Shown: in pieces, positions 2,156 through 8,159 of the stretch
Layout of the letters: every line of letters begins with the position of its first letter
Numbering within the stretch: position 1 is the stretch's first letter
Assembly (NCBI GenBank): GCA_016209155.1
Contig: JACQWU010000204.1
Span: 1-8,159, forward strand
Reading direction: 5' to 3'
DNA length: 8,159 nt
From: Candidatus Desantisiibacteriota bacterium
GTDB taxonomy: Bacteria; JACRDZ01
Notes under the pieces: model-generated
Database searches by the model: none
What the model saw: only the letters and a program-made list of their open reading frames with translations
Told to the model about the DNA's origin: nothing
Program-made: the position numbers and the translations under genes

Positions 2156-3587
2156 ATGAGTAAAGATAAATTAAAACTGGATATAGATAAAAATAAAAAA
2201 GCACTTGAAGAAATATATAAAGTATATCCTGCAAAAGTTGCTAAAAATCGTAGCGCCCATATTTTACTGAAACAGGAAAAAGAAGGTTTATGCCAGAAGA
2301 TTGACGCAAATACCAGAACTATTCCGGGTATTATAACAAGCCGCGGATGCTGTTTTGCAGGTTGTAAAGGAGTTGTTTTCGGTCCGATTAAGGATATGGT
2401 GCATATTGTACATGGACCTATAGGATGTTCGTATTATACCTGGGGTACACGAAGGAATAAAGCCCCGTATGCAGAAAGAGCTGGGAATTACGATACTTGC
2501 TTTAAACTGTGAAGGGTATAAAGGAGTAAGCCAGTCTGCGGGACATCATATAGCAAATAATAAATTATTCAAAGAAGTAATAGGAACAAAAGATAGAGAA
2601 TATGCAAATCCTTTTACGGTCAATATTCTTGGAGAATATAACATCGGAGGGGACGGCTGGGAAGTTCACAGGATTATGAAAGAAATTGGATATGAAGTGA
2701 TTTCAGTTTTAACCGGTGATGCCAAATTGGAAGATATCAGACTGGCTCATAATGCAGCAGTGAACCTTGTTCAATGCCATCGTTCTATTAATTACATGGC
2801 GGAGATGATGGAGAAAAAATTTGGGATACCATGGATTAAGGTTAATTTTATCGGAGTGGAGAGCACATGCAGGACTTTGAGAAATATAGCAAAATATTTT
2901 GGAGATAAAGAATTAATAGAACGTACAGAAGATTTTATAAAAAAGGAAAGAGAACTGATTGATCCTGAAATAAGTAAATATAAAAAAGGAATTCAAGGAA
3001 GAACAGCAATGCTCTATGTCGGAGGCTCCCGCAGTCATCATTATCAGGAAATTTTTAAGGAACTTGGAGTGGAGACAATTATGGCAGGGTATGAATTTGC
3101 TCATCGTGATGATTATGAAGGAAGAAAAGTTATCCCTGAACTCAAACCAGATGCTGACAGCAAGAATATTGAGGAATTGGAAGTAGAACGTGATGCAGGC
3201 AGATATTGCGAACCTGATAAAGATAAAATAAAAAGTTTAAAGAATGTGGGTGTTCCTGTTAATGATTATGAAGGGATGTATCCATCTTCTGCTCAAGGTT
3301 CATTGATGATTGATGATCTTAATCATTATGAAACTGAAAAACTTATTGAATTATTAAAACCGGATATTTTTTGTTCGGGTATTAAGGATAAATATGTCAT
3401 ACAGAAAATGGGGATTCCTTCAAAACAATTGCACTCATATGATTATTCAGGACCTTACGCAGGTTTCAAAGGTGCGGTTATTTTTGCTCATGATATTTTC
3501 ATGGCTTTTGCAAGCCCCGCCTGGCAGTATATAAAACCGCCCTGGGAAATGGAACCAGAAATAGTCGGAAATTTATTACAAAAATGA
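2156..3587 (+). pseudogene. nifD: Nitrogenase molybdenum-iron protein alpha chain NifD, broken by an internal deletion and frameshift
   Basis: NifD carries FeMo-cofactor and half of the P-cluster. The first part (2156 to about 2465) gives a normal NifD N-terminus: RGCCFAGCKGVV with Cys65, GPIGC with P-cluster Cys91, and YTWGTRRNKA. The frame then ends at a stop at 2510-2512. Conserved NifD resumes in another frame at 2469 with MQKELGITILALNCEGYKG and continues, intact, to 3587: VSQSAGHH, QCHRSINY (cofactor Cys, codon 2775-2777), GIPWIKVNFIGVE, YVGGSRSHHY, the long clostridial-type insertion after HRDDYEGR, and QLHSYDYSGPYAG (cofactor His, codon 3432-3434). Compared with remembered C. pasteurianum NifD, about 68 residues are absent, including FSTDMQESDIVFGG-like and ATCPVGLIGDD-like segments; the latter holds the third alpha P-cluster cysteine. 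The frame change means the lost length is 2 modulo 3. No complete NifD can be made from this sequence. Deletion and assembly error are both possible. Confidence 0.92.
2463..2469 (+). other. Probable deletion junction within nifD
   Basis: Upstream of this point the frame reads W-G-T-R-R-N-K-A-P, downstream a different frame reads M-Q-K-E-L-G-I. In intact NifD these two segments are separated by roughly 70 residues. The exact breakpoint cannot be fixed to the base because the missing DNA is not visible, and no long direct repeat is evident at the join. Confidence 0.75.
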
Positions 3588-3599
3588 AGGAGATAAGAA

Positions 3600-4976
3600 A
3601 TGTTAGATGCAACACCTAAAAAAATAGCAAACAGAAAAGCACTAAGAATAAATCCGGCAAGGACATGTCAGCCTATCGGCGCGCTTTATGCTTCTTTAGG
3701 TATTCATAAATGTCTTCCTCATAGCCATGGTTCACAGGGCTGTGTATCTTTTCATCGCATGCATCTTACACGGCACTTTCGGGACCCGATACTGGCATCA
3801 ACGAGTTCATTCACCGAAGGGACATCTGTGTTCGGCGGAAATGCTAATCTGGAACAAGCCATAAAAAATATTTTTCATATCTATAATCCGGATATCATTG
3901 CTATTCATACTACTTGTTTGTCTGAAACAATCGGTGATGATATCCCCTCAATTTTGAGAAATATCAAAAATGTAATTCCTGATGGAAAATATGTAATGCA
4001 TGCAAATACACCGAGCTATGCAGGGAGTCATGTGACAGGTTTTGCCAATATGACAACAGCTTTTGTTAAATATTTTGCCGAAAAAGGCAGAACGGATTTC
4101 ACTAATTATATTAATATTATACCCGGTTTTATGGATCCGGGAGATATAAGGGAAATAAAAAGAATACTTGGTCTTCTAAAAATTCCGTATAATCTTTTTC
4201 CTGATATCACAAATGCTGTGGATTCCCCTATGACAGGCAGGTTCGAATTTTATCCTCCGGGAGGGACTAAAATTGATACTTTGAAAGCTGCAGGTTCAGC
4301 GGCAGCCACAATATGTCTGGGCTCGTTTTCTTCTCTTCCGGCAGGATTGGAACTAAATACCAAATGCGGAGTTGAGCCTATTTCTCTGGACATGCCCATA
4401 GGTATTGAAGCAACTGACAGATTTGTTATGAAGCTCCTCAATTTATCCGGTAAGAAAATTCCGCCATCTGAACTGATCGAGGAACGGGGACGTCTGGTAG
4501 ATTTAATGACTGATACGTACTTTCAATATCATGGAAAACGTGTGGCTGTATTTGGGGACCCTGATATCGTAATTCCTATGACAGATTTTCTTTTAAGCCT
4601 TGGTATGCAGCCTGTTTATTGTCTAACCGGGACCCCGGGAGATAGATTTATACGCGAAATTAAAAGAAAATGTGAAGGAACTGATATCCCTGGATTACAG
4701 GTTGAATCAACAGGAGATCTATTTCTTCTTCATCAATGGATTAAGAATGAAAAAGTGGATTTAATTATCGGAAATACCTACGGGAAGTATATTTCAAAAG
4801 CTGAGAATATTCCACTTGTTAGATTAGGATTTCCAGTGCTGGACCGGATTGCTTATCCATATTTTGCAAATACAGGATATACCGGAGCAATGCGTTTAAT
4901 AGAGAAAATCAGCTCAGCTTTACTTGATAAACAGGATACAGTTTCAACTGATGAAGATTTTGAATTGGTAATGTAA
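3600..4976 (+). CDS. nifK: Nitrogenase molybdenum-iron protein beta chain NifK
   Basis: NifK pairs with NifD in the alpha2-beta2 dinitrogenase and supplies the other half of the P-cluster. The product has 458 residues, the length I recall for C. pasteurianum NifK, and lacks the N-terminal extension of about 50 residues seen in Azotobacter-type NifK. P-cluster ligands are visible: Cys23 (RTCQPIGA), Cys48 (GSQGC) and Cys106 (TTCLSETIGDD), plus Ser139 (TPSYAGSHVTGF), matching the serine that binds the oxidised cluster. Other family marks are STSSFTEGTSVFGG at residues 67-80, NIIPGF, GDPD near residue 319 and NTYGKYI in the C-terminal third. AAGGAG at 3587-3592 precedes the start, overlapping the nifD stop. 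The gene is intact, which makes the broken nifD just before it stand out. Confidence 0.96.
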   Translation: MLDATPKKIANRKALRINPARTCQPIGALYASLGIHKCLPHSHGSQGCVSFHRMHLTRHFRDPILASTSSFTEGTSVFGGNANLEQAIKNIFHIYNPDIIAIHTTCLSETIGDDIPSILRNIKNVIPDGKYVMHANTPSYAGSHVTGFANMTTAFVKYFAEKGRTDFTNYINIIPGFMDPGDIREIKRILGLLKIPYNLFPDITNAVDSPMTGRFEFYPPGGTKIDTLKAAGSAAATICLGSFSSLPAGLELNTKCGVEPISLDMPIGIEATDRFVMKLLNLSGKKIPPSELIEERGRLVDLMTDTYFQYHGKRVAVFGDPDIVIPMTDFLLSLGMQPVYCLTGTPGDRFIREIKRKCEGTDIPGLQVESTGDLFLLHQWIKNEKVDLIIGNTYGKYISKAENIPLVRLGFPVLDRIAYPYFANTGYTGAMRLIEKISSALLDKQDTVSTDEDFELVM

Positions 4977-4984
4977 AGGATAAA

Positions 4985-6349
4985 ATGAATATTTTAATGG
5001 AAAGAGAACATTCTATAAAAAAGAAAACTGACAATTGTGAGCTTTCAATTAATTGTGAAAAGGAAAGTCTTGCAGGATCTGTCAGCCAGCGCGCTTGTGT
5101 GTTTTGCGGCGCAAGAGTTGTCTTAAATCCTATTACGGATGCTCTGCATCTTATTCATGGACCGATCGGATGCGCAAGCTATACATGGGATATTCGCGGA
5201 AGTCTTTCCAGCGGTTCGGAAATATACCGCACCAGTTATTCAACAGATATGAAAGAAAAGGATGTTATTTTCGGGGGAGAAACAAAATTAAAAAAAGCGC
5301 TTAATGAATTAATTCCTAAATTTAAACCTGCCGCTGTGTTTGTATTTTCAACCTGTATAGTCGGTATAATCGGAGATGATATAGAAGCAATCTGCAAGCA
5401 GGCAGAAGAAAAATTTAATACATATGTTATTCCTGTTCAATCAGCAGGTTTTGGCGGCAATAAATCAGCCGGATATCGTGCTGCCTGTGATGCTATTTTT
5501 AAATTAATCAGTAAAGGTGTCCCTTTTAAAGAACCTGATCAAAAAATTCCGTTAAGCGTTAATATTCTGGGAGACTTTAACCTGGCGGCTGAACTCTGGA
5601 TTGTTAAAGATTATTTAAAAAGAATAGGTTTTAATGTTGTTGCCACTGTTACCGGTGATGGCAAGACTAAAGATATTCAAAATGTACCGCTTGCAGAACT
5701 TAACTTATTGCAATGCAGCGGTTCCATGGGATATCTGGCGAAAAAGCTGCAGCAGGAATTGAATCTTCCCTTTTTAAAGATAAGTTTTTTTGGACAGGAA
5801 GATACAATAAATTCATTAAGAAATATTGCTTATTTTTTTAAAGATGAAAGAATAATTAATAATACTGAAAAATTGATAAGGGAAGAGAAGGAAAAGTATA
5901 TTCCGATGATCGAGCAATATAAAAATGGACTTGAAGGCAAAAGGGTGGGGATTTATGTTGGAGGTGCATTTAAGGCTAAATCATTAATAAAAGCATTTAA
6001 AAATCTGGGAATGAAGGTTTTATTTGTAGGAACACAGACCGGGAACAAAGATGATTATGATGAAATATCAAGTTTATGCGATCCGGGAACAATTATTGCG
6101 GATGACACAAATCCCGTTGAGCTTGCCAAATATCTTCTTGAACAGGAAGTGGATTTATTGGTTGGCGGTGTAAAAGAAAGATTTCTGGCTCACAAGCTGG
6201 GGATTGGTTTCTGTGATCATAATCATGAACGAAAGATACCTCTCTCTGGTTTTCCTGGTGATCTGGAATTTACACGGGAACTTCATTCGTCACTTCAAAG
6301 TCCAATATGGAGTATATTAAAAAATGAAAGAAAAAAATTGTACTGCTAA
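4985..6349 (+). CDS. nifE: FeMo-cofactor assembly scaffold NifE
   Basis: NifE, a paralogue of NifD, forms the NifEN complex on which the NifB product is converted to FeMo-cofactor by addition of molybdenum and homocitrate. The 454-residue product has Cys38 (QRACVFCGAR), Cys63 (HGPIGCASYTW) and Cys124 (FSTCIVGIIGDD), corresponding to the three NifE cluster cysteines. Further marks are STDMKEKDVIFGGE at residues 86-99, QSAGFGGNKSAGY, NILGDFN and GDGKTKDIQ. NifD landmarks are altered as expected for a scaffold: NifD's His-His after SQSAG is replaced by GNKSAGYRA. The start at 4985 follows AAAGGA at 4975-4980, which overlaps the nifK stop; a second ATG at 4997 is possible but lies far from that site. 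The last 26 bases overlap nifN. This gene is a useful internal ruler for the segment missing from nifD. Confidence 0.94.
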   Translation: MNILMEREHSIKKKTDNCELSINCEKESLAGSVSQRACVFCGARVVLNPITDALHLIHGPIGCASYTWDIRGSLSSGSEIYRTSYSTDMKEKDVIFGGETKLKKALNELIPKFKPAAVFVFSTCIVGIIGDDIEAICKQAEEKFNTYVIPVQSAGFGGNKSAGYRAACDAIFKLISKGVPFKEPDQKIPLSVNILGDFNLAAELWIVKDYLKRIGFNVVATVTGDGKTKDIQNVPLAELNLLQCSGSMGYLAKKLQQELNLPFLKISFFGQEDTINSLRNIAYFFKDERIINNTEKLIREEKEKYIPMIEQYKNGLEGKRVGIYVGGAFKAKSLIKAFKNLGMKVLFVGTQTGNKDDYDEISSLCDPGTIIADDTNPVELAKYLLEQEVDLLVGGVKERFLAHKLGIGFCDHNHERKIPLSGFPGDLEFTRELHSSLQSPIWSILKNERKKLYC

Positions 6350-7661
6350 TCCATGTTATTTTTGTATGCCGCTGGGTGCTATTTTTGCCGGTTTTGGATT
6401 TGAAAAAACAATTACATTAATCCATGGCTCGCAGGGATGCGCCACATATATGCGTCGTCATATGGCACGGCATTTTCATGAACCTGTGGATGCGGCTTCT
6501 TCTTCGTTAAATGAAAAAGACGCTATATACGGGGGTGAAGAAAATCTTAAAAAAGCCATAAAAAATGTATATAAACAATATAATCCGCAAATGATTGTTA
6601 TTGCAAGTACATGTTTATCTGAAACTATCGGGGATAATGTTGATGCAATTGCGGATCAAATTGAAAAAAAAACAGATGAATTTGATATTCCTCTTATAAA
6701 TGTTTCAACTCCAAGTTTTCAAGGCGGGTATTCTGCCGGTTACTGGAGAACTATAAAAGCAATATTAAAGAAAACATGCGATAAAAGCGTTAAGAATAAA
6801 TTTTTTATTAACATTATTCCGGGTATTATAACCCCTCAAGATATAAGATATTTAAAAGTAATCGGCGATCTGTGGCAGATCGATTTCCATATACTCGGGG
6901 ATTATTCACAGACACTTGACGGTGTATGGTCTGAATCTTTTAAACTTTTACCTGATGGGGGAGCACCTATCAGTTTTTTAAAAGAAGCCAGTTCCGCTCT
7001 TGCGACCATTGAATTTTCCACAATTAATCCTGAGGAGTATTCTCCGGGTTTATTTCTTCAGCAGGAATTCGGGGTACCGTCGTATAGATTACCATATCCT
7101 CAGCAGTTAGGATCAACAGATAAATTTATGAACTTATTAAAAGCTATTACACAGAAAAATATTCCCAAAAGTATTCTTACAACCCGCGGTAGATTACTGG
7201 ATGCAATGATCGATTCGCATAAAATACTTTTTGGAAAAAAAGCAGTAATTTTTGGTGAAGGCGATTTTGTTTATAGTGCCTGTCAAATCATGGAAGAGTT
7301 GGGAGTAGAAGTTGCCGCAATTGTTTATGAAAGTACCAGAGCGCGGGATATCGGGTTTACATTGAAAACAAAAGTACCATTGGTCATTGATAATGGGAGT
7401 ATGTTCGAATTAGAGGAGTGGCTTGCCGGAAATAGTGTGGATTTATTATTGGGATCGAGTGTCGGGTATTCTCTGTCTCTTAAAATGAATATACCGCTTG
7501 TGCGCCGCGGTTTTCCAATACATGATCGTTTTGGCGCCGGAAGGATATTAACAATTATGTATGAAGGCAGTATCTCTCTAATGGATGATATATCTAATGT
7601 ATTTATGGAAAAAATTAATTCGTCATTTAGAAATGAATTAAAAGAAAGTTATTTGCATTGA
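6324..7661 (+). CDS. nifN: FeMo-cofactor assembly scaffold NifN
   Basis: NifN, a paralogue of NifK, is the partner of NifE in the cofactor scaffold complex. The 445-residue product starts MKEKNCTANPCYFCMPLGAI; this opening and HGSQGCATYMRRHMARHF are typical of NifN in anaerobes. Visible cysteines are Cys11 and Cys14 (PCYFCMPLGA), Cys39 (GSQGC) and Cys97 (STCLSETIGDN). Cys14, Cys39 and Cys97 line up with all three NifK P-cluster cysteines, whereas Azotobacter NifN, as I recall it, keeps only the middle one. The start overlaps nifE by 26 bases in another frame, with GGAG at 6309-6312 as a weak, distant ribosome site; coupled translation with nifE is likely and would favour equal amounts of the two subunits. 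Confusion with NifK is excluded by the separate, intact nifK upstream and by the divergent C-terminal half. Confidence 0.92.
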   Translation: MKEKNCTANPCYFCMPLGAIFAGFGFEKTITLIHGSQGCATYMRRHMARHFHEPVDAASSSLNEKDAIYGGEENLKKAIKNVYKQYNPQMIVIASTCLSETIGDNVDAIADQIEKKTDEFDIPLINVSTPSFQGGYSAGYWRTIKAILKKTCDKSVKNKFFINIIPGIITPQDIRYLKVIGDLWQIDFHILGDYSQTLDGVWSESFKLLPDGGAPISFLKEASSALATIEFSTINPEEYSPGLFLQQEFGVPSYRLPYPQQLGSTDKFMNLLKAITQKNIPKSILTTRGRLLDAMIDSHKILFGKKAVIFGEGDFVYSACQIMEELGVEVAAIVYESTRARDIGFTLKTKVPLVIDNGSMFELEEWLAGNSVDLLLGSSVGYSLSLKMNIPLVRRGFPIHDRFGAGRILTIMYEGSISLMDDISNVFMEKINSSFRNELKESYLH

Positions 7662-7682: not shown

Positions 7683-8159
7683 ATGGAAAATATTTTGTCA
7701 ACTAATGAAATAACACATCCGTGTTTCTCAATAAATGCAGCTTCAAAATTTGCCCGGCTGCATTTGCCCGTTGCGCCGGAATGTAATATAAAATGTGCGT
7801 ATTGTAACCGTAAATTTGATTGTGCAAACGAAAATAGGCCAGGAGTAACAAGCTCAGTCCTCACACCGGAAGAAGCACTCGAAAGATTTAAAATTGCAAC
7901 GGAAAAAATTCCAGATATAAAAATTGTCGGGATTGCAGGCCCGGGAGATCCACTGGCAAATAGCGGCAGTGTTTTTAAAACTTTCAGATTGATTCGGAAA
8001 TATGATGATAAAATAAATTTTTGTATTTCAACAAATGGAGTTGAGCTTAAGAAATATGCGGATGAAATTAAAAGTATAGGAATAAAATATATTACTGTTA
8101 CTGTAAATTCCAGAAAAATTGAGGTTGCCAGAACATTATATAAATGGGCAAAAGACGGT
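7683..8159 (+). CDS. nifB: FeMo-cofactor biosynthesis radical SAM protein NifB (N-terminal part, cut by window edge)
   Basis: NifB is the radical S-adenosylmethionine enzyme that fuses two [4Fe-4S] clusters and inserts the central carbide to form the NifB-cofactor passed on to NifEN. The open frame runs off the window after 159 codons. It shows the NifB-specific HPCF at residues 12-15, the radical SAM motif C-x3-C-x2-C at Cys34, Cys38 and Cys41 (PECNIKCAYCNRKFDC), then ENRPG at 50-54 and GIAGPGDPLAN at 83-93, followed by CISTNGVEL. Full NifB proteins have roughly 290 or more residues, and some carry a C-terminal NafY/NifX-like domain; whether this one does cannot be seen. The start follows AAAGGA at 7670-7675 and lies 21 bases after the nifN stop, so nifB belongs to the same operon. 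Confidence 0.95.
   Translation, partial: MENILSTNEITHPCFSINAASKFARLHLPVAPECNIKCAYCNRKFDCANENRPGVTSSVLTPEEALERFKIATEKIPDIKIVGIAGPGDPLANSGSVFKTFRLIRKYDDKINFCISTNGVELKKYADEIKSIGIKYITVTVNSRKIEVARTLYKWAKDG

Follow-up and report, generated by a model that had tools for sequence, protein, structure and literature searches.

In NifD, the alpha subunit of nitrogenase, the cysteines of the motifs GCCFAGCKG and GPIGCSYYTW are the equivalents of the Azotobacter alpha-subunit P-cluster ligands 62 and 88, and that of ATCPVGLIGDD is the equivalent of alpha-Cys154, the third alpha-subunit P-cluster cysteine. QCHRSINY and HSYDYSGPY carry the FeMo-cofactor ligands Cys275 and His442 (Azotobacter numbering). Two bodies of work on genome assembly complete the background. 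Local assembly errors in metagenome-assembled genomes, yielding wrong genes, have been documented (PMC7111523). So have spurious pseudogenes from bacterial assemblies, in a study that tallied frameshifts and internal stop codons across public genomes (PMC11017572).

The nifD gene we describe here has a hole in it, which we think is an assembly error, a false join, and not a mutation (probability about 0.92, judged from sequence). The window, the whole stretch of DNA that we analysed, coincides with a single contig, C58 (8159 bp), taken in full. It belongs to the draft genome G000, which comprises 352 contigs and 3.08 Mb and has an estimated completeness of 79%. Its nif genes all lie on the + strand. 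An intact nifH (503-1321; TIGR01287, above cut-off) is followed by two intact PII genes, nifI1-like (1438-1776) and nifI2-like (1796-2155), identified by PII family matches and their location between nifH and nifD. Downstream of nifD (2156-3587) come nifK (3600-4976), intact and full length with a TIGR01286 score of 411.6 bits, slightly below the cut-off of 427.3; an intact nifE (4985-6349; TIGR01283, above cut-off); an intact, full-length nifN (6324-7661), which is below all family cut-offs and is named from gene order and paralogy; and nifB (7683-8159; TIGR01290, model positions 9-156), truncated by the contig end. The first-pass annotation had described every nif gene other than nifD as undamaged and, save for nifB being cut by the contig end, that is what we find.

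The flanks of nifH have features of their own. Just upstream is a GlnK-like PII gene (104-442), a third PII besides the two nifI-like genes; in G001, a genome of the same phylum, the nif-locus gene that matches it best has only 37% identity. Between this gene and nifH sits a perfect palindrome, TAGAGACGCAAAATTTTGCGTCTCTA, at 446-472. Its 22-base core occurs seven times in a 0.9 Mb sample of G000 and not at all in 0.5 Mb of G001, and it is therefore a dispersed repeat of G000. Between nifH and nifI1 there is a long inverted repeat (GTAGGGGCAGACCTATGTGTCTGCCC ... GGGCAGACACGCAGGTCTGCCCCTAC, 1325-1410) resembling a small non-autonomous element or a hairpin; the sampled 0.9 Mb of G000 holds no further copy. 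An Rfam search of the window for an RNA element that might act at the nifD junction returned no match.

nifD itself is spread over two open reading frames in different frames, 2156-2512 and 2469-3587. The first ends ...TWGTRRNKAPYAERAGNYDTCFKL*, having run out of register past about 2461 to a stop at 2512. Its homologous part, the 5' fragment (2156-2461), amounts to 102 aa, matches PDB NifD chains and is 77% identical to the NifD of G001. The second opens with an ATG at 2469 and the residues MQKELGITIL; this 3' fragment (2469-3587) is 372 aa long, free of stops, 81% identical to G001 and alignable with PDB 1mio. TIGR01282 is the best family for each fragment, at 130.5 and 437.2 bits, below its cut-off of 653.55, and between them they cover model positions 3-97 and 159-466 of 466.

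In both closest relatives nifD is intact. One is locus L007 in G001 (81% amino acid identity); the other, L033 (75%), comes from a MAG labelled Nitrospirota. DNA alignment with each leaves one 200-base gap in the window, a distance that was reproduced on re-measurement. Homology holds on the left up to AATAAAG (about 2462) and on the right from CGTATGCAG (about 2466), which puts the junction at 2462-2466, with a breakpoint uncertain by a few bases. Since 200 is 2 modulo 3, the loss matches the frame change: codon 102 is fused to a point some 67 codons downstream, in another frame. The first-pass annotation had proposed a gap of about 200 bp, and aligning nifD with close relatives to size it; that alignment bears the estimate out, at exactly 200 bp against L007 and L033 alike. 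Its narrower figure, a deletion of 2 modulo 3 near 203 or 206, was right about the remainder and slightly too large in size, because it was based on C. pasteurianum NifD, whose spacing in the 1mio coordinates is 3 nt (one residue) longer. Programmed frameshifting was considered and rejected, as the coding sequence is short by 200 bp and not just out of frame.

What does the gap take away? Both FSTDMQESDIVFGG and ATCPVGLIGDD belong to the absent block, and with them the segment bearing the third P-cluster cysteine is indeed gone, as had been read from the sequence at first pass. The 5' fragment retains the equivalents of cysteines 62 and 88, and that of 154 falls within the missing 200 bp. Both FeMo-cofactor ligand motifs, QCHRSINY and HSYDYSGPY, are in the 3' fragment and align with 1mio, and the same fragment holds the GHHIAN histidine. 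Among NifD relatives, the ATCPVGLIGDD-type motif is kept in 74 of the 74 that could be scored by motif search (6 further loci could not be scored).

A search of G000 with the nitrogenase family model, as the first-pass annotation had advised, brought up nifD (in its two pieces), nifK, nifE and nifN and no second nifD, in a genome 79% complete. With the G001 segment as query, G000 yielded no displaced copy of the absent stretch, only the nifE, nifK and nifN paralogues, and the junction sequence had no match in viral contigs. On C108 (L114), at 3882-4082, the NifH family has a weak match interrupted by three in-frame stops, which may be one more broken gene or a chance similarity. Beyond its gap, nifD gives no sign of decay, in stops or in pN/pS: its 3' part is stop-free and has a pN/pS of 0.158 against G001, within the range of the intact genes nifH, nifK and nifE (0.10, 0.22 and 0.24). 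With synonymous sites between the two genomes near saturation, a real deletion of very recent date would leave an identical picture. A diazotroph caught in the act of losing nitrogen fixation, its sole alpha gene newly without the third P-cluster cysteine segment and its other nif genes under selection, would fit this description, and we regard it as a long shot.

The evidence that weighs most for an assembly fault is the recurrence of the lesion beyond nifD. Proteins of G000 were compared with the DNA of G001, and the reverse, over 0.5 Mb of G001 and 0.9 Mb of G000 (99 contigs, a few of them truncated at 20 kb). The signature was two good matches abutting in different frames with 100-240 bp absent between them. 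Besides nifD on C58 (200 bp absent), it appeared in genes, named from alignments and not from family scans, for an MgtA-like P-type ATPase (C3 at about 13839, 140 bp), a PorA-like 2-oxoacid oxidoreductase subunit (C50 at about 3626, 140 bp), a peptidyl-prolyl isomerase (C77 at about 9851, 113 bp), a RimO-like enzyme (C73, about 100 bp) and MutL (C32, about 236 bp). With G000 as target this makes 6 of 109 comparable genes, against 0 of 112 with G001 as target (Fisher p = 0.013). Under a strict rule, with both halves at least 45% identical, the counts become 4/62 and 0/55 and the contrast is not significant (p = 0.12); it leans partly on the weaker matches, RimO and MutL. None of these junctions, in nifD or in the five further genes, carries an N. 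Two other loci stand apart from the count. A SecA-like gene on C48 has an apparent in-frame gap of 40 residues, which may be natural variation and was left uncounted. A gyrB-like gene on C38 (L157, 4153-6511) is 65% identical to G001 before a 19-base run of Ns; past that run the identity drops to about 26% and there is an extra segment, which perhaps reflects a chimeric scaffold, or natural divergence.

Among essential genes, rpoB is the telling case. The single copy found in G000, on C276 (L258) at about 2765, falls into two frames, of 851 and 429 aa. At the break, CCAAAAGGAGAGAGCCATTTTTGGTGAAAAAGC, VTPKGE runs straight into RAIFGEK in the wrong frame, and 32 bp are lost on balance; in solved RNA polymerases these two motifs stand exactly ten residues further apart than in G000 rpoB, and the residues are conserved. 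Such a loss in the only rpoB would be lethal. As a sole rpoB so cut is incompatible with life, the G000 assembly does make short, N-free, frame-changing losses within genes. In alaS, on C332, the reading frame breaks too, there at a run of 12 Ns. rpoC lies on two contigs, split at their ends, with no bearing either way, and TIGR00594 (polc), with just two weak hits (C174 and C156), was unusable as a test gene.

A real, very recent 200-bp deletion, which inactivated nifD and left a strain unable to fix nitrogen, is favoured by a sequence that, at face value, shows a clean deletion in an otherwise intact operon, and by near-saturated synonymous sites against the nearest relative, which leave room for a recent loss without further trace. 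Against it, the same lesion type recurs in other genes of the assembly, among them the one rpoB, where a cell could not tolerate it; no separate biological cause is then needed, and we hold this reading to be very unlikely. A mixed population, in which cells with the deletion lived alongside cells with an intact nifD and the assembler retained the short haplotype, sits well enough with a fragmentary, moderately complete genome. The bin holds no longer version of the locus, though, and it would take lethal or many independent deletions to account for rpoB and the several other affected genes, which leaves so little room that we would be most surprised to see this reading borne out. Taken together, a real or a strain-level deletion is improbable. 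On a third reading the cell makes NifD in two separate chains, or through frameshifting, and the product, lacking the Cys154 segment, is a nitrogenase-like protein with an altered P-cluster; in its favour, an ATG chances to start the second frame at 2469. With that segment in all scored relatives, the other nif genes ordinary and the lesion type assembly-wide, we give this next to no credence, and as little to anything functional in the split nifD.

Which brings us back to the false join. The first-pass annotation had offered a very recent event, a strain-specific one and an assembly fault without choosing among them; the lesion's return in rpoB and in five or more further genes favours the last over the other two. 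The same lesion in several genes, the sole rpoB included, makes the nifD hole almost certainly an assembly mistake and not a real biological feature. The state of the draft (352 contigs, 79% complete) counts in the same direction, as do its frequent short N runs (23 of 8-106 bases each in 0.9 Mb of G000, against 1 in 0.5 Mb of G001), the clean nifD outside the gap and the motif kept in 74/74 scored relatives. G000 would have been built from short pieces, and the assembler or scaffolder would have joined neighbouring pieces directly, leaving the ~30-240 bp between them unassembled. In nifD, such a join would have fused codon 102 to a point ~67 codons onward in a different frame. Because the junctions carry no Ns, the mechanism of the join, like the exact assembly step behind it, is something we infer. 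The living organism presumably has an intact nifD, and reads would be expected not to support the junction. The organism is, then, a probable diazotroph and not a natural nifD mutant. Several percent of comparable G000 genes appear to carry false internal losses, and an absent residue, domain or function in this genome should not be inferred without a read check.

Set beside known proteins, the NifD of the window is closest to the clostridial type, represented by C. pasteurianum NifD (1mio). Both fragments have their best alignment with this group, the long insert of the 3' part included, and those P-cluster and cofactor ligands that are left are conserved; unlike C. pasteurianum NifD, it is without about 67 residues that include the third alpha-subunit P-cluster cysteine. 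Set beside known assembly errors, those proposed for G000 resemble the errors of PMC7111523, in which joins in the consensus corrupt coding genes of fragmented, scaffolded drafts; our case, however, is drawn from comparing relatives rather than from mapped reads. With the spurious pseudogenes of PMC11017572 G000 shares an apparent loss of function that derives from assembly and gives itself away when too many genes of a single genome are broken. Where those were frameshifts and stops, the lesions of G000 are internal losses of ~30-240 bp.
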